45,065 nucleotides of DNA from a virus, in the IMG/VR virus record IMGVR_UViG_3300025047_000026, positions 1 to 45,065 of that record; one strand, written 5' to 3'. A model generated the notes under the pieces. That model had not been told where the DNA came from, made no database searches, and saw only the letters and a program-made list of their open reading frames with translations. The position numbers and the translations under genes were made by a program. Shown one piece after another: positions 10,565 through 22,098 of the stretch (positions within the stretch are counted from its first letter, which is position 1; each line of letters opens with the position of its first letter).

Positions 10565-10704
10565 CCCTCCTCCATTTCCTCCGCTTCACCTTCCCCTCTG
10601 AACAGTTGCGCAAGTCTCTCTTGATCCTGGTCCTGTCAGCGGCGCTCTGGATCGGGATTTCCGCCCTGTGCTGGGCCGTCCTGCGGTTCATGGGAGGGGT
10701 GTGA
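10561..10704 (+). CDS. small single-span membrane protein
   Basis: This 47-residue protein has one hydrophobic span (residues about 20-41, SLLILVLSAALWIGISALCW). The start overlaps the previous stop as ATGA, and the stop overlaps the next ATG as TGATG. The last 66 bases (10642-10707) recur almost unchanged at 11260-11325, where they form the tail of a chimeric gene. The function is unknown. Confidence 0.6.
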   Translation: MTLLHFLRFTFPSEQLRKSLLILVLSAALWIGISALCWAVLRFMGGV

Positions 10705-11069
10705 TGCCGATCAATCCCGAACGCATGAAACTCTATCCCGGTGGCTCCATTCACTCGAAGGAATGGAAGGCTATCAGGGAGGACATTCTCGACCGCGCTG
10801 ATCACGCCTGTGAGGGAACACCGCAGCATCCGGATTGCGAAGCCGTGAACTACGAGCCGCATCCTGAGACCGGCTCCAAGGTCATTCTCACCATAGCGCA
10901 CATGGACTGGGACGAAACCAATAACGATCACGACAATCTGAAGGCCCTCTGCCAGCGCTGCCACAATAAGTGGGATGCGCCTCAGCGTCAGAAGAATGCC
11001 GCCAAAACCCGCCGCCGGAAGTCCGATCAGATCGATCTGGAAGACTGGCTCGAAACGGCAGGCCACTGA
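10704..11069 (+). CDS. HNH endonuclease
   Basis: This 121-residue protein has an HNH/zinc core: C36 and C45, AHMDWD (H66), DNLKALC (N78) and C83-QR-C86-H87 with NKWD. HNH proteins of this size in phages are free-standing nicking or cleaving enzymes. Cysteine pairs probably bind structural zinc. It is coupled to its neighbours by overlaps. The 3' end (CTCGAAACGGCAGGCCACTG) is identical to the 3' end of the gene at 11322-11675, a recombination boundary. Confidence 0.8.
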   Translation: MPINPERMKLYPGGSIHSKEWKAIREDILDRADHACEGTPQHPDCEAVNYEPHPETGSKVILTIAHMDWDETNNDHDNLKALCQRCHNKWDAPQRQKNAAKTRRRKSDQIDLEDWLETAGH

Positions 11070-11263
11070 CATGAACCGGGGGACAGAGACACCGCTGAGA
11101 GTCCTGGTTGCCTGCGAGTATTCCGGGCGCGTGCGGGATGCCTTCATTCGCGCCGGCCATGACGCCCTGTCCTGTGACCTTCTGCCAACCGAAGTTGCCG
11201 GACCCCACCACCAGGGCGACGTGACGGAGCTGCTTGGCGATGGCTGGGATCTGATGGTTGCGC
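11049..11263 (+). repeat. repeat copy A of methylase 5' region (pairs with 11655-11869)
   Basis: These 215 bases match 11655-11869 with about 20 differences by eye (roughly 91 % identity). The first 53 bases or so are identical. Most differences fall at third codon positions, so both copies were under coding constraint before they were brought together. Confidence 0.9.
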
Positions 11264-11322
11264 TCTGGATCGGGATTTCCGCCCTGTGCTGGGCCGTCCT
11301 GCGGTTCATGGGAGGGGCGTGA
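11071..11322 (+). pseudogene. truncated methylase fused to membrane-protein tail (chimeric ORF)
   Basis: Residues 1-64 are the N-terminus of the cytosine-methylase-like protein encoded again at 11677. Right before the catalytic HPPC motif the frame switches to the last 19 residues of the small membrane protein of 10561-10704 (LWIGISALCWAVLRF and on). The junction at 11260-11263 is a GCGC shared by both parents. The 83-residue product would lack the catalytic site but gain a hydrophobic tail. The frame stays open and coupled to the next gene, so a product may be made. Confidence 0.75.
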
Positions 11323-11325
11323 TGC
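11260..11325 (+). repeat. second copy of the membrane-protein gene 3' end (pairs with 10642-10707)
   Basis: These 66 bases are identical to 10642-10707 except one T/C change (10700 versus 11318). The copy forms the 3' end of the chimeric frame and supplies the TGATG start overlap to the next gene. Confidence 0.9.
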
Positions 11326-11675
11326 GGCTTTATTCGATCTGGCACACAGAACTTCAGAAGTTCTACAAGGGCGATGACTGGAATGGTCGGCACTATTGGT
11401 CCGGCACTCCCCGCTATTGGCAAACCATCGACGGCATCAAGAAAAACCTCCTTCGCCTTGGCAGCGAATACAGGGGCGAAACGTCGTACAGTGATGGCCC
11501 GTGGGCTGATGATGAAGACGTGTATGGCTTCAAGCGGTACGCGAATTTCGACATCAGCAAGCTCGCTGCAATCGAGATTATTGTAACCGATGTCGCCGTG
11601 CTTGGGGAGACCCGCGTTTCCCCGGCGTCCCTGTTCGATGAGTCCGTCCCGCCCCTCGAAACGGCAGGCCACTGA
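11322..11675 (+). CDS. hypothetical phage protein
   Basis: This 117-residue protein is rich in aromatic residues in its first half (LYSIWHTELQKFYKGDDWNG, RHYWSGTPRYW), with the later strand FDISKLAAIEIIVTDVAVL. It is not recognised. It occupies the same place in the second repeat unit as the HNH gene does in the first: between the membrane-protein tail and the methylase start. Its 3' end shares the LETAGH sequence with the HNH gene. Confidence 0.65.
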   Translation: MRLYSIWHTELQKFYKGDDWNGRHYWSGTPRYWQTIDGIKKNLLRLGSEYRGETSYSDGPWADDEDVYGFKRYANFDISKLAAIEIIVTDVAVLGETRVSPASLFDESVPPLETAGH

Positions 11676-11869
11676 CATGAACCGGGGGACAGAGACACCG
11701 CTGAGAGTTCTGGTCGCCTGCGAATATTCCGGGCGTGTGCGGGATGCCTTCATTCGCGCCGGCCACGACGCCCTGTCCTGCGACCTTCTGCCGACAGAGA
11801 TACCCGGCCCTCACTACCAGGGCGACGTGACAGATCTGCTTGGCGATGGCTGGGACCTTCTGGTTGCGC
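11655..11869 (+). repeat. repeat copy B of methylase 5' region
   Basis: This is the partner of 11049-11263. This copy continues into the intact methylase-like gene. Confidence 0.9.
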
Positions 11870-12291
11870 ACCCCCCCTGCACGCATCTGGCAGTCTCCGG
11901 GGCGCGCTGGTTCAAGGACAAGCAGGCGGAACAGGTCGAGGCGCTGGACTTCGTGCGACTGCTTCTGGATGCGCCGATCCCCCGCATTGCTCTGGAAAAC
12001 CCCGTCAGCGTGATTTCCTCCCATATCCGCAAGCCTGACCAGATCATCCAGCCCTGGCAGTTCGGGCATGGAGAGACCAAGGCCACCTGTCTGTGGCTGA
12101 AGAACCTGTCAGGGCTGGAGCCCACCAATATCGTTGAGGGCCGGGAAGCCCGCGTCCACCGCATGGCGCCCGGCCCTGACCGCTGGAAAGAGCGCTCCCG
12201 CACGTTCGAGGGCGTTGCCCAGGCTATGGCGGATCAGTGGGGCACACGTGAGCTCGTGCAGCCTTCTCTCTTCGACGAGGTGGCCGCATGA
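11677..12291 (+). CDS. phage DNA (cytosine) methylase-like protein
   Basis: This 204-residue protein is of a compact phage family related to C5-cytosine methyltransferases. It has a motif-I-like start VLVACEYSGRVRDAF (11-25), the catalytic-type AHPPCTHLAVSG (64-75, C68), and a motif-VI-like ALENPVSVI (106-114). It then has a family-specific stretch with WQFGHGETKATCLWLKNL. The large target-recognition region of classical enzymes is missing, so specificity is unclear. It probably modifies phage DNA or is a relic of such an enzyme. A truncated second copy lies upstream. Confidence 0.75.
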   Translation: MNRGTETPLRVLVACEYSGRVRDAFIRAGHDALSCDLLPTEIPGPHYQGDVTDLLGDGWDLLVAHPPCTHLAVSGARWFKDKQAEQVEALDFVRLLLDAPIPRIALENPVSVISSHIRKPDQIIQPWQFGHGETKATCLWLKNLSGLEPTNIVEGREARVHRMAPGPDRWKERSRTFEGVAQAMADQWGTRELVQPSLFDEVAA

Positions 12292-12697: not shown

Positions 12698-13086
12698 TGC
12701 AAAAGCTTCGCACACTCATTCGGTGGGAGTTCATCCGGCTTGGCTATCAGAAGGGCCTGACCCCGACGGAGATCGCCGCCTTCATTGGCTGGACCCCTGA
12801 AAGCGTAAAGGTTCGCGCTTCGGCTCTCAAATGCACCAAGAGCCAGAAGGCGGCCGCTCTCGACCGTGAGCAGACAAAGCGCCTCACGGCCCGCAGGAGA
12901 AGCGCACGAGGCGGCGTAGCAGCGGCCCTGGTAAACCGTGACCCCGCTCCGATCACCCTTGTCGGCCCACACTGGTCAGTGCCCCTTCGCAAGGGCGTCC
13001 AGCATTCCGACAATCTCCGCCTCCCATCCAACCCAAAGCGCGCCCTCGCTGACATGCAGGCAGAGCTGGAAAGGGGGCAGGGATGA
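12697..13086 (+). CDS. helix-turn-helix DNA-binding protein
   Basis: This 129-residue basic protein has a clear helix-turn-helix near residues 22-45 (GLTPTEIAAFIGWTPESVKV), followed by basic segments (TKRLTARRRSARGG). It resembles small phage regulators or the sigma-region-4-like fold. It lies just upstream of the replication gene and overlaps it by 4 bases. It could regulate early or replication genes; the target is unknown. The stretch upstream of 12697 in the same frame is not credible coding. Confidence 0.6.
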   Translation: MQKLRTLIRWEFIRLGYQKGLTPTEIAAFIGWTPESVKVRASALKCTKSQKAAALDREQTKRLTARRRSARGGVAAALVNRDPAPITLVGPHWSVPLRKGVQHSDNLRLPSNPKRALADMQAELERGQG

Positions 13087-13970
13087 GCAAGCACGTTGTC
13101 TCACTCGTCTACTCTCGCAAGGCGGGGTCGCTGCTGCGCAAGGCCGTCCTCGCATACATGGCAGACGTGGCGAACCATGACGGCACCGGCGTGTGGTCTT
13201 CCAAGCAGAGAATAGCCGACGAAATCGAGGCCAGCAAGAAGGGCGTCAAAGAGTGCATCAAGGCGCTCGTCGCTGACGGAATCTTGTCAGAAGTCGGCAA
13301 ACGAAAGTGCGCCAACGGGCACACGATTGAGTACGCCATCAACCTAGATGTTGTGGCTGCGCTAGAGCCGATGCCCCACCAAAAGGGGGAGGGGGGTAAT
13401 TTTACCCCCGGTACCGAGGTGCCCCCCACGGGGGAACTGGATGCCCCCCACGGGGGAACTGAGGTACCCCAAACCGTCCTTAACCGTCCTAAACCATCTA
13501 ATTCTGACGAATTAGATTTAGGCGACACACAGTCCGAACAGCCAAAACGCAAAGCTGCCCCAAGGGGCGCGGCTCGTGGTTCTCGCATTCCCGAAAACTG
13601 GGCACCCAGCCCGAAAGACTATGCCTATGCGTCCAGCAAGGGCGTGACCCCTGAGGAGATCAACAATGAGGCAGAAAGATTCTACAACCACTGGATTTCA
13701 GCCACTGGCAGAAGCGCTACCAAGCTCAGCTGGGAAGCCACATGGCGCAACTGGATCATCGGTGACTACGGCATTGTCGAACGGAAGCGCAAGGCCGCAG
13801 AGCGAGCCGCCAGCTTCGCCAGCAAAAATGGCGGAAAGCTTGGCACCTTTGACCGACTTGATCGAAAGCTGGAGGCAGCTGCCTCACGGCAAGACGCTCG
13901 GTTCGACGATGAGCGAGACGGAGGCCAAGGCTACACTATCGATGCTGAAGCCACTCGTCTCGCCGGGTGA
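13083..13970 (+). CDS. phage replication initiator, lambda O-like
   Basis: This 295-residue protein has an N-terminal winged helix (residues about 5-95; SLLRKAVLAYMADVANHDG, then SSKQRIADEIEASKKGVKE and IKALVADGILSEVGKR) of the phage O/DnaD-like type. A low-complexity linker (about 103-165) follows, then a C-terminal domain starting RIPENWAPSPKDYAYASSKG and ending SWEATWRNWI, common in phage replication proteins. The linker is encoded by repeated DNA that looks like an origin, the same layout as lambda O. It should bind those repeats and recruit helicase-loading factors. Confidence 0.8.
   Translation: MSKHVVSLVYSRKAGSLLRKAVLAYMADVANHDGTGVWSSKQRIADEIEASKKGVKECIKALVADGILSEVGKRKCANGHTIEYAINLDVVAALEPMPHQKGEGGNFTPGTEVPPTGELDAPHGGTEVPQTVLNRPKPSNSDELDLGDTQSEQPKRKAAPRGAARGSRIPENWAPSPKDYAYASSKGVTPEEINNEAERFYNHWISATGRSATKLSWEATWRNWIIGDYGIVERKRKAAERAASFASKNGGKLGTFDRLDRKLEAAASRQDARFDDERDGGQGYTIDAEATRLAG
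13391..13515 (+). other. candidate replication origin inside the O-like gene
   Basis: Four elements lie in a row. An 8-bp inverted repeat GGGGGTAA-TT-TTACCCCC spans 13392-13409. Two 20-base direct repeats TGCCCCCCACGGGGGAACTG lie at 13420-13439 and 13442-13461 (22-base pitch). Three 10-base repeats run AAACCGTCCT, TAACCGTCCT, AAACCATCTA (13471-13500). A 7-bp hairpin CTAATTC-TGAC-GAATTAG spans 13498-13515 in an AT-rich patch. The 22- and 10-base pitches are not multiples of three, so the repeats are read in different frames and must be conserved as DNA. Confidence 0.65.
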
Positions 13971-14246: not shown

Positions 14247-14396
14247 ATGATTTTCGTGCTTTCGATTTTCTTTATCGTCGTCAGCGCCGCCGGACTCTTT
14301 CTGGATGAGCCCGGTTGGAGGCTCTTCTATCTAGTGCTGATCGGGCTGAACGCATTTTCCGCATGGGCTAGCCGCCCAAGAGGGGGGCGGTCATGA
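14247..14396 (+). CDS. small two-span membrane protein
   Basis: This is a 49-residue protein. The first hydrophobic span (FVLSIFFIVVSAAGLFL) opens the protein, and the second (LFYLVLIGLNAFSAW) precedes a basic tail RPRGGRS. AGGGGG lies 12 bases before the ATG. The stop overlaps the next start as ATGA. The function is unknown. Confidence 0.6.
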   Translation: MIFVLSIFFIVVSAAGLFLDEPGWRLFYLVLIGLNAFSAWASRPRGGRS

Positions 14397-14701
14397 CAAT
14401 CCTTTCAAAATCCGTTGCGGCCGCTTGCGAGTACGCAGACGTGTCAGTCTCGGATGTCGCCTGTCAGGACAAGCGTCCGGTCATCGTGCGCCTGCGCTGG
14501 GCTTTCTGGTTCCACTTGACGGCTATTGCAGGCTGGTCCCTTCCGATGGCTGGCCTACGGACGGGCCACGACCACACGACCGTCCTGTATGGCATCCGAA
14601 AACACGCGGCTGAGCATTTCGGCACTGATCCGCAAGCTGGCCTTGAGACGATCCGCTCTGCCGCACAGGCCCCCCTGCTTAAGCTGATGGAGGTGGCATG
14701 A
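14393..14701 (+). CDS. stand-alone DnaA domain IV-like protein
   Basis: In this 102-residue protein, residues about 34-72 match the DNA-binding domain IV of DnaA: LRWAFWFHLTAIAGWSLPMA, then GLRTGHDHTTVLYGIRKH. The latter corresponds to the DnaA signature with the H-x-T that contacts DnaA boxes. The AAA+ domain is absent. It lies in the phage replication region and may bind the phage origin or compete for DnaA boxes. Similar domain-only proteins occur in alphaproteobacterial phages. The start overlaps the upstream stop by 4 bases. Confidence 0.75.
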   Translation: MTILSKSVAAACEYADVSVSDVACQDKRPVIVRLRWAFWFHLTAIAGWSLPMAGLRTGHDHTTVLYGIRKHAAEHFGTDPQAGLETIRSAAQAPLLKLMEVA

Positions 14702-14985: not shown

Positions 14986-15161
14986 AGAACCAAGACGAAG
15001 CCAGCAAGATCGCCGTCCTCGAGAATATGCTGAGCAACATCGTTGAGACGTATGACCGCGAGAACTTCATGACCACGGCGGACTTTCACAGCACGGATTG
15101 CAGGTGCCTGCGTTGCCTTATTGACGCTGCCGGTGGCTACCTCAGAGAGGATTCCCAATGA
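14982..15161 (+). CDS. small protein with Cys cluster
   Basis: This is a 59-residue protein with a helical N-terminal half and a C-R-C-L-R-C cluster near residues 40-45 (DCRCLRCLIDAAGGYL), possibly part of a metal site. GGAG precedes the ATG, and both ends overlap neighbours. Unknown function. Confidence 0.5.
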   Translation: MKNQDEASKIAVLENMLSNIVETYDRENFMTTADFHSTDCRCLRCLIDAAGGYLREDSQ

Positions 15162-15679
15162 CCCAACTTTGGTACGCCTTCAGTTGCCGCGCCGACCGCA
15201 CAGAAGCGGCTGCCAATCGTCTCGGGGAACTCATGGACTGTGACGCCTTCGCTGTGTGCAGGACGCTTCGCAAGCGCCCCCCTCGCAAGCCAGCCCGCAC
15301 GGTGACAGAGTGCGTGTTGAAGTCCTACATCTTCGCAGGCTTTGACGAGGCACCGAACTTCCTGGCGATCGAGCACATGCCCGGCCCCCGAATTTACCCG
15401 ATCAGCTTTGCCGGCGCAATCAAGCCGCTGAATGGCATGGCGGATCTGAAATGGATCACGGGCCAGCTTCCGAAGCCCTTGCACAGGCACTACAACATTC
15501 CCCGCCTGAGAGGCCAGCACACATGGACCGCGGGCGATCATGTCGAGGTGGAGAACATCGGTCAGGTCGAGGTTGAATCCGTTGACGGCAATCATCTGCG
15601 TCTTGCCTTGCGGTTGCTGGGCCGTCCGGTGATAATGCGGGCAGAGGATGCGCAGTTGGCTTTGAGGCGCGTCGCGTGA
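15158..15679 (+). CDS. NusG-like phage protein, candidate late antiterminator
   Basis: This 173-residue protein resembles NusG. Its N-terminal domain opens LWYAFSCRADRTEAAANRL and contains the strand VLKSYIFAGFDE, where NusG has its gYvFv strand. Its C-terminal part (TWTAGDHVEVENIGQVEVES, NHLRLALRLLG) resembles a KOW module. NusG paralogues act on elongating RNA polymerase. Its position before a promoter, leader and terminators that precede the structural genes suggests a Q-like role. Fold assignment is by eye; the role is inference. Confidence 0.55.
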   Translation: MTQLWYAFSCRADRTEAAANRLGELMDCDAFAVCRTLRKRPPRKPARTVTECVLKSYIFAGFDEAPNFLAIEHMPGPRIYPISFAGAIKPLNGMADLKWITGQLPKPLHRHYNIPRLRGQHTWTAGDHVEVENIGQVEVESVDGNHLRLALRLLGRPVIMRAEDAQLALRRVA

Positions 15680-16221
15680 TGGGAACCAAGCAGCTTCCAA
15701 GCGCGGACGTGCTTCATCAGATTTTGCGGCACGAGCCCGAAGATGGACTTCTTTTTTGGAAAAGGCGTCCGGATCATTTTTTCGGTTCAGAGGGCTCAGC
15801 CAAATCATGGAATAAACAGTTTGCTGGCAAGCAGGCGTTCACATCTCGCGATAGTAATGGGTACTATCGTGGCGGCATATTTGGTACGGTCTATCGGGCG
15901 CATCGGGTTATTTGGGCTCTGGTCCATGGGTGTGATCCTGAATACATTGACCACATAAATGGAGACCCATCGGACAACAGAATTGACAACCTCAGAAGCG
16001 TTTCTGCTTCTGAGAACGCGATGAACTGCCGAAAGCCAAAGACTAACACGAGTGGCTACCATGGCGTTCACTGGAATGAGGCAAATCAGAAATGGCTGGC
16101 CACCATGACGGTTCGTGGGCGATCCATCTACCTGGGTAGCTTTGAGAGCAAGAAAGACGCTGCTCGTGCGCGCAGGGTGGCCAATCGCAAGTATGGGTTC
16201 CACGAAAACCATGGGCGTTGA
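15679..16221 (+). CDS. HNH homing endonuclease with AP2 domain
   Basis: This 180-residue protein has an HNH module at about 74-106 (AHRVIWALVHG, then YIDHINGDPSDNRIDNLR) and an AP2 DNA-binding module at about 126-165 (GYHGVHWNEANQKWLATM, then YLGSFESKKDAARA). This domain order is typical of free-standing phage homing endonucleases. The ATG at 15679 overlaps the previous stop as TGATG; a GTG at 15676 is also available. It may be a mobile insertion between the NusG-like gene and the late promoter. Its lower G+C than the neighbours fits recent arrival. Confidence 0.9.
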   Translation: MGTKQLPSADVLHQILRHEPEDGLLFWKRRPDHFFGSEGSAKSWNKQFAGKQAFTSRDSNGYYRGGIFGTVYRAHRVIWALVHGCDPEYIDHINGDPSDNRIDNLRSVSASENAMNCRKPKTNTSGYHGVHWNEANQKWLATMTVRGRSIYLGSFESKKDAARARRVANRKYGFHENHGR

Positions 16222-16247
16222 CAACTACCAGCAAATCACCTGATAAG
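16218..16247 (+). promoter_or_regulatory. candidate late promoter
   Basis: TTGACA (16218-16223, overlapping the endonuclease stop codon) is followed after 18 bases by GATAAG (16242-16247, four of six matches to the -10 consensus). Transcription would start near 16254 and run through a roughly 150-base untranslated leader into two terminators before the late genes. Confidence 0.55.
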
Positions 16248-16253
16248 GGAACC

Positions 16254-16402
16254 AGTTCACCGAGGACGTGCTAGATGCTTCGCCCGGTGCGAGGGGCTGG
16301 AACACCGCGAGCGCGATCACCAGACCCCAAGTGCGAAGCCTTTTCTGAAATCAGAGCAAGCATCGGTGGTGTAGTCCCCCAGCCTGTCAGCCGTTGCAAG
16401 CG
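16254..16402 (+). other. untranslated leader of the late transcript
   Basis: No credible gene is seen here. A 67-codon frame at 16275-16478 has implausible composition and runs into a terminator. The segment is G+C-rich with short complementary stretches (for example CCCGGTGCGAGGGG, and GGTG/CACC pairs near 16290-16322). It could hold a loading site for an antitermination complex or a small RNA. Confidence 0.45.
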
Positions 16403-16440
16403 AGCCCCGTGTTTCCTGTTTGGAGGCGCGGGGCTTTCTC
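16403..16440 (+). terminator. intrinsic terminator 1 in the late leader
   Basis: AGCCCCG (16403-16409) pairs with CGGGGCT (16429-16435), followed by TTCTC. The 19-base loop and short T tract make it weaker than the next one. Confidence 0.55.
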
Positions 16441-16481
16441 ATAGGGTGAGGCGTTACTCTCGTGGCGTCTTACCATAAACT

Positions 16482-16526
16482 GCCTGCGGCACTTCCAGAC
16501 CATACCCTGTGTCGCAGGCTCTTTTT
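16482..16526 (+). terminator. intrinsic terminator 2 in the late leader
   Basis: GCCTGCGGCAC (16482-16492) pairs with GTGTCGCAGGC (16509-16519), 11 pairs with one G-U, followed by T-C-TTTTT (16520-16526). It is a strong rho-independent terminator upstream of all structural genes, so their expression should need antitermination or a promoter downstream. Confidence 0.85.
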
Positions 16527-16595
16527 GCAAGCATAACCCAATATTCCTGTGAAAAATCAAAGCGTTACGGGGAGGGGGATTCAGGATCGCCCAAA

Positions 16596-16751
16596 ATGGC
16601 CCAAAATCGGGCCTATCCTGTAATAGTTATTGGGGATTCAGCTTCCCCATTGGTATCCAGCCGGACAGCCGACACACTGCTTAGCAATGTACGTTCAAAT
16701 GAGGCGGCATACTGGCTGGATTCCCATGCGGAACGAAAGGGACTGATATGA
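16596..16751 (+). CDS. possible small protein before the late operon
   Basis: This 51-codon frame (ending TLLSNVRSNEAAYWLDSHAE plus a few residues) stops with an ATGA overlap to the next gene. That overlap and the reasonable composition are the only support; the ribosome site is poor. A GTG start at 16509 would overlap the terminator. The rest of 16527-16747 holds only short dyads, such as TGGGGA/TCCCCA near 16632-16650. Confidence 0.3.
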   Translation: MAQNRAYPVIVIGDSASPLVSSRTADTLLSNVRSNEAAYWLDSHAERKGLI

Positions 16752-17125
16752 AATACGAAGTCAAAGGCCTGACCAGCTACGGCGTCTACGATGGCGACCG
16801 TCTGTGCGGGACATATGAGAGCGAGAAGGCGGCAACGCTGGTCGCTGAAGCGCTGAATGAAGAGGAAGAGTTTCGCGAGGTCGAGAATGTCCTGACGTCG
16901 CATCCGCATGGAGATTCTGACTCGTTGCAGGGCGATCCTGAGCTACAGGAGGCGAAGAAGGCCTACAACGCGGCCCTAGCGGCATCCTCGACCGACAAAG
17001 CGCCCATCTGGAGCCCTGACCAAGATGGATCCGGCAATAACTTCACCAACGGACACGCCCCACAGGAGTCCAAGAAAAATGTGCCGCTCAACTGGCGCGA
17101 TGGCTTTGAGCCCACAGGAGACTGA
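16748..17125 (+). CDS. hypothetical phage protein
   Basis: This 125-residue acidic protein opens with YEVKGLTSYGVYDGDRLCGT and the helix KAATLVAEALNEEEEF, then has a long polar, probably disordered tail. The family is not recognised. GAAAGG precedes the ATG. It is the first well-supported gene after the late terminators. Confidence 0.6.
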   Translation: MKYEVKGLTSYGVYDGDRLCGTYESEKAATLVAEALNEEEEFREVENVLTSHPHGDSDSLQGDPELQEAKKAYNAALAASSTDKAPIWSPDQDGSGNNFTNGHAPQESKKNVPLNWRDGFEPTGD

Positions 17126-18075: not shown

Positions 18076-18228
18076 ATGCATAGCGCAGCGGGTTCGTCCA
18101 AAGCCTGAAACACAACTCACACTAGAAACGAATAGCGATATTCACGGGCGGAGACTTTCGCGCCCTGCAAAACACAACCCCAAGTAATGATTATCATCCA
18201 ACACCGCTCAAACCGGGGAGGATCAGCC

Positions 18229-18546
18229 ATGACCCATAAACAAACGAAAAAAAATAATAACGTCGCGGGAAAGGCGGGGCCCGGCCGGCCAAAGGGTTCC
18301 CTGAACAAGACCACAACGCTCCTGAAGGAGGCCATTTTGAAGGCCGCTGAGCTGTCAGGCGAGGATGGCAAGGGCAAGGGGAAAACCGTGGGTTATCTCA
18401 AGCGCCTCGCCAACGAACAGCCCGTCGCATTTTCCGGACTGCTCGGAAAGGTCCTGCCAATGCAGGTGACTGGCCCGGAAGACGACGAAGGCAATTACCA
18501 GGAGATCAGGGTCAGCTTTGTCGGTTCTGGAAGTAACCCTAGCTGA
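18229..18546 (+). CDS. probable terminase small subunit
   Basis: This 105-residue basic protein has GRPKGSLNKTTTLLKEAIL near its start and the segment LKRLANEQPVAFSGLLGKVL, a pattern of small proteins placed directly before PBSX-type large terminase genes. Such proteins recognise DNA for packaging. The start at 18229 follows GGGGAGG at 7 bases; an ATG at 18187 lacks this. It overlaps the large-subunit gene by 29 bases. The role is inferred from position and the family pattern. Confidence 0.6.
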   Translation: MTHKQTKKNNNVAGKAGPGRPKGSLNKTTTLLKEAILKAAELSGEDGKGKGKTVGYLKRLANEQPVAFSGLLGKVLPMQVTGPEDDEGNYQEIRVSFVGSGSNPS

Positions 18547-19894
18547 GGCTTTCCGCCCGCTTTACCAGCCCGCTCGTTACAAGGCCGCGCATGGTGGACG
18601 CGGTGGCGGCAAGAGCCATGACAGGGCCGAGGCACTTATCCTGCTCTGTTACGCCAAGCGGACGCGCGCTGTGTGTATTCGTGAGGTTCAGAACTCGATC
18701 CGGGATTCGGTCCGCCAGCTCCTGATCGACAAGATACGGAAATTCCACCTCGGCAATTTCTTCGAGGTCACCAACACGGAGATACGCGGCGCCAATGGAT
18801 CGCTGATCGTGTTCCGGGGCATGCAGGCCTACAATGCGGAGAACATCAAATCCCTTGAAGACTTCGATGTGGCATGGGTGGAAGAGGCGCAGACGCTCAG
18901 TGAGAAATCGCTCAGGCTGTTGCGCCCGACGCTTCGCAAGGAAGGCTCTGAACTCTGGTTCACATGGAACCCGCGCTATGAGACAGATCCTGTGGATGCG
19001 CTGTTCCGCGGCGCCATGCCTCCGAAGGACAGCATTCTCGTCAGCGTCGGACTGGATGACAATCCCTGGGCCACAAAGGTGCTGCGAGATGAGCGGGATG
19101 AGGACTTTGCTCGTGATCCCGAAATGGCGCGGCATGTCTGGGGTGGTGATTACGAGATCGTCAGTGAGGGCGCCTATTATGCGCGCCTGCTGGCCAAGGC
19201 AGATGATGAAGGGCGGATTGGCGACTTCCCGCATGATCCGAAGCTTCCCGTCCGGACGGCGTGGGACATTGGCGTCGATGACTACACGGCGATCTGGTTC
19301 ATTCAGGATGACGGACTCTGGCACACGGTCGTGGACTATTACGAGGTGAGCGGATTGGGGGCCGAGGACATAGTGCGCAATTCGATGCCGGAGCTTGTGC
19401 CTGACCTTCAGGAGCGGGTCGAGACACGCATGGCGCTGGGCCGGTCTGATCCGTATCAGTACGCGGTGCATTACCTGCCGCATGATGTGAAGAACCGGGA
19501 ATGGGGCGCTGGTGCAAGGTCACGGGTGGAAATCCTTGCCGGCCTTGGCGTGAAGCCGATCCAGAAGGGCGCGGCGGTCGGGCCGGAAGAGCGGATCAAT
19601 GCCACGCGGGCCTTGTTGCCGTTCCTGCGCTTCAACCGGACGAGCCGCGTGATGCTGGGGGTGCAGAGGCTGCGCCGTTACGCGCGCAAGCTGAACGAAA
19701 CCGGCGTGACCCCGATCTATATGGGGCCGCTGCATGATGACAATTCGCACGGTGCGGACGCTTTTGGGGAATACGCGGTCAATCGCGGCGCCCACATCGT
19801 CGTCAAGCCGGAAGAGAAGCCGAAACAGCCACGGGGAACGGTTGTGCTTGAGGGCGCACCGAAGCCGCCGAGCCGCAAGCGCATAAGGGTGTAA
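18518..19894 (+). CDS. terminase large subunit (PBSX-type)
   Basis: This 458-residue packaging motor has an N-terminal ATPase with Walker A GGRGGGKS (26-33) and Walker B DVAWVEEA (117-124). Its C-terminal nuclease has AWDIGVDDYTAIWF near 247-260 and DDNSHGADAFGEYA near 410-420, giving the acidic metal triad. The only start that fits is a TTG at 18518 inside the small-subunit gene, with AGGG upstream. The next gene overlaps as TAATG. Confidence 0.93.
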   Translation: MSVLEVTLAEAFRPLYQPARYKAAHGGRGGGKSHDRAEALILLCYAKRTRAVCIREVQNSIRDSVRQLLIDKIRKFHLGNFFEVTNTEIRGANGSLIVFRGMQAYNAENIKSLEDFDVAWVEEAQTLSEKSLRLLRPTLRKEGSELWFTWNPRYETDPVDALFRGAMPPKDSILVSVGLDDNPWATKVLRDERDEDFARDPEMARHVWGGDYEIVSEGAYYARLLAKADDEGRIGDFPHDPKLPVRTAWDIGVDDYTAIWFIQDDGLWHTVVDYYEVSGLGAEDIVRNSMPELVPDLQERVETRMALGRSDPYQYAVHYLPHDVKNREWGAGARSRVEILAGLGVKPIQKGAAVGPEERINATRALLPFLRFNRTSRVMLGVQRLRRYARKLNETGVTPIYMGPLHDDNSHGADAFGEYAVNRGAHIVVKPEEKPKQPRGTVVLEGAPKPPSRKRIRV

Positions 19895-22098
19895 TGCAAC
19901 AAGACCACGGCGATATGAACAAGGCGGAAGAACCGACCGGCGAACTTGAAGCGAGTGCCAAGGATTGGTGCGACATGCTCAAGGATGCCGAGAAGTCGTT
20001 TTCGACCTGGCATGACAAGTGCGACAACATCGCCAAGCTGTATGCGGACCTGAAGCGGCTTGCCGGAGAGACGACCGAGCGGGAAATGAAGCTGTTCTGG
20101 GCGAATGTCGAGGTGCTGAAGCCCACGATCTACGCCCGTCCGCCGCAGCCTGTGGTGAAGGTGCGCCATTCGATCCGCAAGCCTGTGCCCCGTGCTGCTG
20201 CGATCATGGTCGAGCGCTGCCTGGCAACCAATTTCGACCTGCGGGACATTCACTCGACCCTGCTGGAAGCGCGGGATGATCTGGCCCTGTTCGGACGGGG
20301 CGCAACATGGGTGCGCTACAAGACCGAAGGACAGGTCGTTGAGCCTGATCCGAACACATTGCAGGACGGGGAAGGGCAGGACGAGCCGGAAGTCGAGGGC
20401 TTCGAGGAATACACCTGCTACGATCATGTGAACCGCAAGGAGTTCCTGCACGAGCCTGTCCGGACGTGGCGGGAGGTCGGCTGGGTGGCACGGGCAAGCT
20501 GGCTGACGGCAAAGGAAGGCAAGCGCCGGTTCGGCAAGCAGTGGACAGGCGTCACCTACACCGAGGACAACAAGGACACGGCTGAAGAGTACAAGGTCGA
20601 CAAGAAGGCGAAGGTCTGGGAGATCTGGCACAAGGGCCGCAATACGGTGGTCTGGGTGCATGAGGGTTGCGACCATGTGCTGGACGAGCGCGAGCCGTGG
20701 CTGAAGCTTGAGGGCTTCTTCCCGTGCCCGAAGCCCGCCTATGCGACGCGAGAGCCTGAAAGCCTGACCCCGGTTCCGGACTTCCTGTTCTACAAGGACC
20801 AGATCGAGGAAGTGAACGAGTACACCGAGCGGATTTCTGCCCTGGCAGAGGGGCTGCGGCTCAAGGGCTTCTACTCGGCAGGCGGCGAAGACATAGGCAA
20901 CGCGGTCGAGACGGCGCTACAGCAGACGGACAATAATGCGGTCATGATCCCGGTGCCGAGCGTCGCGGCGATGGGTCAGGGCATGAAGGACTCGATTGTC
21001 TGGATGCCGATCCGTGAGGTGGCCGAGACAATCACCTCCCTGATCCAGTTGCGCAAGCAGGTGATCGAGGACATTTACCAGATCAGCGGCATTTCCGACA
21101 TCATGCGCGGAGAAACGCAGGCCAGCGAGACGGCCACGGCGCAGAACATCAAGACCCAATATGGGAATGTGAGGGTGCGCGAACGCCAGAACGAGATGAT
21201 CCGGCTGGCGGACCAGATGATGAGCATCGACGGCGAGATCATGTCGGAGAACTTCCAGCCCGAGACGATGCTGTCCATGTCGCAGATGGAGAACGTCCTG
21301 CCAATGCAGGTGCTTGAGCAGCACAAGCAGATGACCATGCAGCACCAGCAGGCCGCGCAGATGGCGCAGCAAGGCCAGCAGCAGCCCCCACAGCCGGGCC
21401 AGCCCCCTCAGCCAGCCCCGCAGGTGCCGCCGCCCCCTCCGCCGCTTCCACGCGACGCTGTGAGCCAGGAGGAAGTGTTTGCGCTGCTGCGGAATGAGAA
21501 GATGCGTCCGTTCATCCTGCAAACGGCTTCGGATTCCACGGTGCAGCCCAATGAGGACGCCGAGAAGCAACGCCGCAACGAGTACGCGCAAGCCGTTGGC
21601 GGCCTGTTCGCGCAGGCCGGGCCTGTGGTTCAGTCCTTCCCGCCAGCCGGCGCCCTGTTCGGCGAAATGCTGAAATTCGTATCCGGCGCCTATCGGGCCG
21701 GTCGGGAGATGGAGAGCGTCATCGACGACTTCACCGACCAGATGATGGAGATGGCGAAAGCACCGAAGGATGAAGGGCCGAGCCCGGAGCAGATCAAGGC
21801 GCAGGCCGAGACGAAGCGCATGGAAATGCAGCAGCAGATCGACGGCCAGAAGGCGCAGGTCGAAGGCCAGAAGATGATGATGGAGGCCAGGACCGCGCAG
21901 ATGGAAGCCGCCAACAAGCAGCGTGAAATGCAGATGCAGGGCGCAATGGACCAGATGCGGATGGCGCATGAGCAGCAGATGGCCGGGATGACCGAGCGCC
22001 TGAAGGAAATGGACATTACCATCAAGGAACTGGCCGTAGAGGCCGCCAGGGCCAAACCGAAACCGAATGGGAGTGCGAGCCATGAGCGACGAACCTGA
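19894..22098 (+). CDS. portal protein (P22-like)
   Basis: This 734-residue protein follows terminase in the usual place. The N-terminal part (KDAEKSFSTWHDKCDNIAKL, EMKLFWANVEVLKPTIYARP) and the middle part (SDIMRGETQASETATAQNIK) match portals of P22-like podoviruses. Long portals of this group carry a helical C-terminal barrel. Here residues about 470-520 are Gln/Pro-rich and 630-715 are Met/Gln-rich coiled coil. Starts at 19894 or 19915 are both possible. The large reverse-strand frame within it is a shadow of the skewed composition. Confidence 0.9.
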   Translation: MQQDHGDMNKAEEPTGELEASAKDWCDMLKDAEKSFSTWHDKCDNIAKLYADLKRLAGETTEREMKLFWANVEVLKPTIYARPPQPVVKVRHSIRKPVPRAAAIMVERCLATNFDLRDIHSTLLEARDDLALFGRGATWVRYKTEGQVVEPDPNTLQDGEGQDEPEVEGFEEYTCYDHVNRKEFLHEPVRTWREVGWVARASWLTAKEGKRRFGKQWTGVTYTEDNKDTAEEYKVDKKAKVWEIWHKGRNTVVWVHEGCDHVLDEREPWLKLEGFFPCPKPAYATREPESLTPVPDFLFYKDQIEEVNEYTERISALAEGLRLKGFYSAGGEDIGNAVETALQQTDNNAVMIPVPSVAAMGQGMKDSIVWMPIREVAETITSLIQLRKQVIEDIYQISGISDIMRGETQASETATAQNIKTQYGNVRVRERQNEMIRLADQMMSIDGEIMSENFQPETMLSMSQMENVLPMQVLEQHKQMTMQHQQAAQMAQQGQQQPPQPGQPPQPAPQVPPPPPPLPRDAVSQEEVFALLRNEKMRPFILQTASDSTVQPNEDAEKQRRNEYAQAVGGLFAQAGPVVQSFPPAGALFGEMLKFVSGAYRAGREMESVIDDFTDQMMEMAKAPKDEGPSPEQIKAQAETKRMEMQQQIDGQKAQVEGQKMMMEARTAQMEAANKQREMQMQGAMDQMRMAHEQQMAGMTERLKEMDITIKELAVEAARAKPKPNGSASHERRT

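Follow-up and report, generated by a model that had tools for sequence, protein, structure and literature searches.

A diverged NusG relative as the probable late-gene antiterminator of an alphaproteobacterial prophage

We suggest that a prophage switches on its virion genes with the help of a diverged NusG relative, which would take RNA polymerase past two leader terminators by processive late antitermination. We put the probability of this reading, which is drawn from sequence, at about 0.7. The window, i.e. the whole analysed stretch of 45,065 bases of an IMG/VR record, has at its start genes for a recJ-like protein and an integrase, both named from their translations, and is therefore probably a prophage. 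On the plus strand the early genes are followed by an ORF of 173 amino acids, an HNH_3/AP2 gene, a promoter, a leader and the terminators T1 and T2. Behind them lie small ORFs, a small terminase-like gene (18187), the gene of the large terminase subunit TerL (18518) and a portal-like gene (19894). All parts of a Q-type layout, namely a regulator ending the early operon, a promoter, a leader, a terminator and the terminase, are present in the window. The initial annotation had compared this order with lambda Q, pR', leader, tR' and late genes; the order is real and is conserved among relatives. The features are the following.

13083-13970, plus strand: O-like replication initiator, in the early/replication operon ahead of the regulator (phrog_1032, E 2.4e-21)
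14393-14701, plus strand: DnaA-C/HTH-like small protein of the early operon (PF08299, E 2.3e-6, under the curated cut-off)
15158-15679, plus strand: NusG-type regulator of 173 aa, proposed late antiterminator (profile comparison, AF2 model)
15676-16221, plus strand: HNH_3+AP2 endonuclease cassette (PF13392, E 8.7e-16; phrog_99, E 1.4e-62)
16218-16223, plus strand: -35 box TTGACA (TTGAC retained in all relatives)
16242-16247, plus strand: -10 box GATAAG, 4/6 (invariant among relatives)
16230-16330, plus strand: conserved block from the promoter-proximal spacer into the leader (near-invariant across nine relatives)
16402-16436, plus strand: intrinsic terminator T1 (15-bp stem, z -5.27)
16482-16526, plus strand: intrinsic terminator T2 (11-bp stem at 16482-16519, then UCUUUUU; z -4.35)
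16748-17125, plus strand: first ORF of the late operon (ORF call; family libraries without a match)
18187-18546, plus strand: small terminase-like protein (56% identity to the protein before TerL in Bradyrhizobium phage ppBjS10J-1)
18518-19894, plus strand: TerL (phrog_3717, E 6.4e-52)
19894-22098, plus strand: portal-like protein (39% identity over 490 aa to the gene after TerL in ppBjS10J-1)

The 173-aa gene and the single endonuclease gene behind it are both real ORFs, as had been stated, and overlap by 4 bp. The promoter TTGACA-N18-GATAAG (16218-16247) is found where it had been placed, and it is the only site on either strand of the window with TTGACA, a spacer of 16-18 and at least 4/6 matches in the -10 box (0.3 expected per strand). 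Its -10 box is weak, and a generic promoter scan overlooks the site because GATAAG lacks the final T. The transcript is predicted to start near 16254, and the leader of about 150 bases is untranslated. The stop codon of the HNH gene (TGA, 16219-16221) indeed lies over the -35 box.

The regulator has nine close relatives in IMG/VR with 92-96% identity and one more in a Pseudooceanicola MAG. Two DNA patterns of the leader, searched over the same IMG/VR collection, match exactly the nine regulator-bearing contigs. Within the loci compared, several relatives can be aligned to the window over little else than the regulator gene and the promoter-leader block; these two form conserved islands (about 84-94% nucleotide identity) in otherwise exchanged surroundings. 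The gene between the regulator and the promoter encodes an HNH protein in the window and in L007, a methyltransferase-like protein in L002 and L003, and is replaced by small ORFs in the others. TTGAC is retained 17-18 bp from GATAAG in all nine relatives although both the upstream sequence and the first spacer half vary, and in most of them the stop codon of the inserted ORF falls within TTGA. As the inserts differ and TTGAC stays constant, the simplest reading is a hot spot at which cassettes, here the endonuclease gene, replace one another, with its right edge inside the promoter and with selection keeping the -35 box. The proposal that the endonuclease was inserted between the regulator and its target is borne out by the relatives that lack it, which hold other genes there and retain the promoter.

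Further traces of exchange are seen in the same region. Small ORFs inside the late leader (L006:1816-1941, L008:1663-1911, L007:7374-7823) mark a second cassette site; in L006 and L008 they sit between an extra hairpin and T1, with T1 and T2 still intact downstream. In L018:664-740 and L021:1003-1080 only the first 22 or so codons of the regulator are left ahead of a small membrane-protein-like ORF, which we read as a remnant of module exchange. Elsewhere in the window (10642-11869), two direct repeats, one of 215 nt (91%) and one of 66 nt (98%), recur at a spacing of about 610 nt around a small ORF (11286-11675) and an HNH-like gene (10668-11069). We read them as repeated cassette insertion near the gene ending at 12291.

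Two intrinsic terminators ahead of the late operon had also been described. Their folding is significant, with 0/200 shuffles folding equally well for either of them; T1 is present in 9/9 relatives examined and T2 in 8/9 (not found in L009). The U tract of T1 is poor (UUUCU). Conserved non-coding DNA beside terminase genes is often a cos/pac site, and the conserved block with its hairpins could be such a packaging site, or a plain readthrough barrier, the regulator acting elsewhere. We consider this very improbable, since the block starts at the promoter and ends at the two terminators, the small terminase gene lies about 1.9 kb beyond it, and the matching region of other phages carries a covarying RNA (see below).

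The 173-aa protein is, with good confidence, a remote relative of NusG. Its strongest support comes from eight other phages, which carry NusG-like genes where the window has this ORF; a profile comparison and a biased fold prediction also point to NusG. The proposed domain order is NGN-like (1 to about 105), linker and KOW-like (about 122-170). When a profile of six close homologues was compared by hhalign with one of 29 NusGs and 20 paralogues, residues 1-167 aligned at a score of 34.7, and none of 300 column permutations exceeded 24.0; a larger profile gave 33.4 against 23.7. Some smaller profiles, among them phage NusGs alone and the Bradyrhizobium type alone, gave no significant score. Visible matches include W-Y near the start, KSYIFAGF for PGYxFV, GDHVEVE and LLGRPV; the KOW motif lacks its G-P-F loop. 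The earlier naming of a NusG-type protein is supported at the level of profiles, with a score above all 300 permutations, but Pfam gave no match up to E 1 (the curated score of PF02357 is not reached) and NCBIfam was silent. The family search of the whole record returned no NusG/Spt5 assignment, and in PHROGs the protein reached phrog_6386 only at E 0.3, which does not pass; that profile also matches the host NusG in nearly all genomes. A tblastn search of phages and plasmids gave only noise at E of 1 or above.

The structure prediction that had been proposed as a check gave a mixed result. With close relatives only in the alignment, AF2 gave an unusable model (pLDDT 35.5). With 54 phage NusGs added it gave the NGN and KOW element order (pLDDT 68.6, pTM 0.60), and Foldseek returned NusG, RfaH and Spt5 as top PDB matches with TM-scores of 0.3-0.5; this model is biased by the phage NusGs in its alignment, and residues of about 70-115 are misaligned.

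The silence of Pfam and NCBIfam would also suit an activator or antiterminator unrelated to NusG, of the Q, AlpA or GafZ kind, binding DNA between the -35 and -10 boxes, with the NusG likeness arising by convergence or chance. The spacer half CAAATCACCT is invariant in the relatives, and Q, AlpA and the putative GafZ element bind at that site (PMC11150451). We regard such a protein as unlikely. The profile comparison, the order of the NGN and KOW motifs and the recurrence of NusG-like genes at this position speak against it. In Pfam, PHROGs and NCBIfam the protein had no match to a Q antiterminator family. The invariant spacer half runs into an equally invariant leader, so that we do not claim it as proof of a Q-type binding element; its invariance may reflect recent ancestry only.

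The preferred assignment to NusG draws most on other phages, found by tblastn with an alphaproteobacterial NusG paralogue and then with the phage proteins. A gene that is recognisably NusG-like occupies the Q position in eight deposited alphaproteobacterial or cyanobacterial phages: Sinorhizobium phi2LM21 and phi3LM21, Rhizobium PPF1, Mesorhizobium vB_MseS-P1, Agrobacterium Rivra, Bradyrhizobium ppBjS10J-1, Nostoc Nsp-JY10 and Microcystis yong2. Every one of them has it at the point where the early block ends or next to that point, and the major block that comes after is that of the terminase genes. It mostly stands directly 3' of a replication-initiation/HTH gene, and two of the eight have an HNH gene in between. 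ppBjS10J-1 has homologues of the small terminase-like (56%), TerL (33%) and portal-like (39%) proteins of the window. Neither NusG nor antitermination is taken up in the paper that describes the Sinorhizobium prophages. The nusG of 'Microcystis phage MaAM05' (MW495066.1, L095) was discarded, as its secE-nusG-rplK-rplA context looks like a bacterial chromosome.

The leaders of phi2, phi3, PPF1, P1, Rivra and JY10 share an RNA structure, which is absent from Rfam and apparently undescribed. It consists of an outer stem CCYUGA/UCARGG, an inner variable stem, a single-stranded AxCGAY and then AGUGC-NNNN-GCUAU; in most of the six phages a terminator follows closely 3' of it. A core pattern of 26 bases matched at least 120 IMG/VR contigs. 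Among the matches listed, a NusG-like ORF on the same strand ends 87-149 nt (median 130) before the core in 99/99 contigs testable for it (those with at least 700 bases upstream), a terminator lies within 120 nt downstream in 99/118 (33/600 control windows), and TerL is found downstream in 47/47 tested. The 78 distinct element sequences among the matches listed show compensatory changes at all five pairs of the inner stem, with a covariation score of 0.184 against 0.093 +/- 0.006 in shuffles; as the small hairpin and the 3' side of the outer stem were set by the core pattern itself, the free evidence comes from the inner stem and from the 5' side of the outer one. Sampled proteins linked to the element pass the Pfam NusG cut-off. 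Examples of the element, which does not occur in the window, are at L126-L245 (e.g. L126:1388-1450) and L084:5636-5698. Genome-wide covariance-model matches in Alphaproteobacteria were treated as false, as no NusG-like ORF is near any of them, and none of the 385 alphaproteobacterial genomes sampled for these matches has the exact core pattern. Phages of the Bradyrhizobium type (L246-L249, L085:5711-5830) have after the NusG-like gene a conserved leader of their own, GCAAATCAG ... CGGCCGGT ... TTTCACCCGCCGGGTGGCTTGTG, which is perhaps a second kind of loading signal.

These phages also bear on which transcript is acted upon. TTGAC-type promoters within 160 nt upstream of the element show no excess (3/110 among the matches listed, 7/600 in controls), and with the stop codon of the NusG gene as close as noted above, the late genes of these phages seem to be reached from upstream. 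The NusG-like protein of the window might likewise act on the early transcript and not at a late promoter of its own: polymerase of the early operon, fresh from transcribing the regulator gene, would pass T1 and T2 by N-like or LoaP-like readthrough, TTGACA-GATAAG being a minor or cassette-derived promoter. We hold this for possible but doubtful, as the family of the window retains TTGAC 17-18 bp from GATAAG across unrelated inserts.

The leader of the window has none of the cis signals compared. Its stability at 16254-16400 is ordinary (z -0.2), and a possible stem GGGGCUGG/CCAGACCCC at about 16293-16328 in the conserved block is predicted with a z that is not significant. No ops element was found at 16218-16550 with up to 2 mismatches, and the Rfam search gave nothing relevant. 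Identity with the rhizobial RNA element, suggested by AGUGCGAA-GC at 16328-16339 and a similar order of stems, was rejected, as two covariance models (R1/R2) do not match the leader, which may hold an RNA of another kind; homology to the Bradyrhizobium-type leader, suggested by the shared GCAAATCA, is not significant. Hence, what places the window in the common layout is its position and its probable protein family; its cis element does not.

The loading of the regulator, the readthrough and the late timing we infer to proceed in three steps.

Step 1: The last gene of the early operon (15158-15679) would supply the diverged NusG paralogue. Until it accumulates, transcription from the late promoter (16218-16247), and probably early readthrough too, would halt at T1 and T2.

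Step 2: The regulator would load onto RNA polymerase at the leader, using a signal within 16230-16345.

Step 3: The regulator would stay bound to the polymerase, as NusG, RfaH and LoaP do, and the polymerase would then read past both terminators and go on to transcribe the genes for terminase, portal and virion.

To our knowledge, the phage late antiterminators known so far are of the Q type or the p7 type or work by way of Nus factors. Plasmid operons and those for capsule, LPS and polyketides are the known settings of NusG paralogues. A NusG paralogue serving as a phage late switch is not described in the NusG reviews or in the open-access literature searched, most subscription journals and bioRxiv lying outside that search. 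The components each have a precedent; their combination, i.e. a phage NusG late switch with a covarying RNA in sister phages, was not found in the literature searched. We think it fairly probable that a widespread class of tailed phages has swapped Q for a NusG paralogue, that most known members are recruited by the common unnamed leader RNA, and that the window represents a branch which has diverged, with a promoter of its own and another loading signal. The documented hosts of this class are rhizobia, Nostoc and Microcystis, and it would also include marine alphaproteobacterial prophages such as the window.

In lambda, as in the window, the regulator is last in the early operon and is followed by a promoter, an untranslated leader (6S in lambda), a terminator, and terminase and late genes. 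However, the protein of the window is NusG-like, there are two terminators, and an exchangeable cassette separates the regulator from the promoter. Among Alphaproteobacteria, GafZ of the Caulobacter gene transfer agent is a comparable case: it antiterminates a structural operon of the phage type, which also has a long leader and a terminator. However, GafZ is an unrelated protein that works with GafY/IHF and host NusA/E/G (PMC11150451). RfaH and the NusG paralogues of plasmids and operons are specialised NGN+KOW proteins and plausibly self-sufficient antiterminators, as we propose here; the window differs in a leader without ops and in a phage-borne regulator with one adjacent target. The phage genes annotated as phrog_6386 'transcription antiterminator' or as NusG (rhizobial, Bradyrhizobium, Nostoc and Microcystis phages) lie between a replication initiator and the terminase and are followed by a leader and a terminator, as in the window. 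Unlike the window protein they pass family models, and 6/8 of these phages carry the RNA element, which the window lacks.

LoaP, a NusG paralogue of Bacillus velezensis, drives polyketide operons and binds a UNCG hairpin (PMC12691694). It sets the precedent of a NusG paralogue with a leader hairpin and a leader terminator, so that such a pair can act at leader terminators (PMC12691694). Like LoaP, the regulator of the window lies beside its target operon with a leader terminator, and related phages also have a structured leader RNA, whereas the leader of the window has no recognised RNA element. The window likely combines the layout of lambda Q with LoaP-like components. Phages that carry a NusG-like gene, a covarying RNA, a terminator and a late operon are compact natural systems for studying how NusG relatives become RNA-guided, and if the common leader RNA does recruit their NusG paralogues, these would form a second RNA-guided NusG family besides LoaP.
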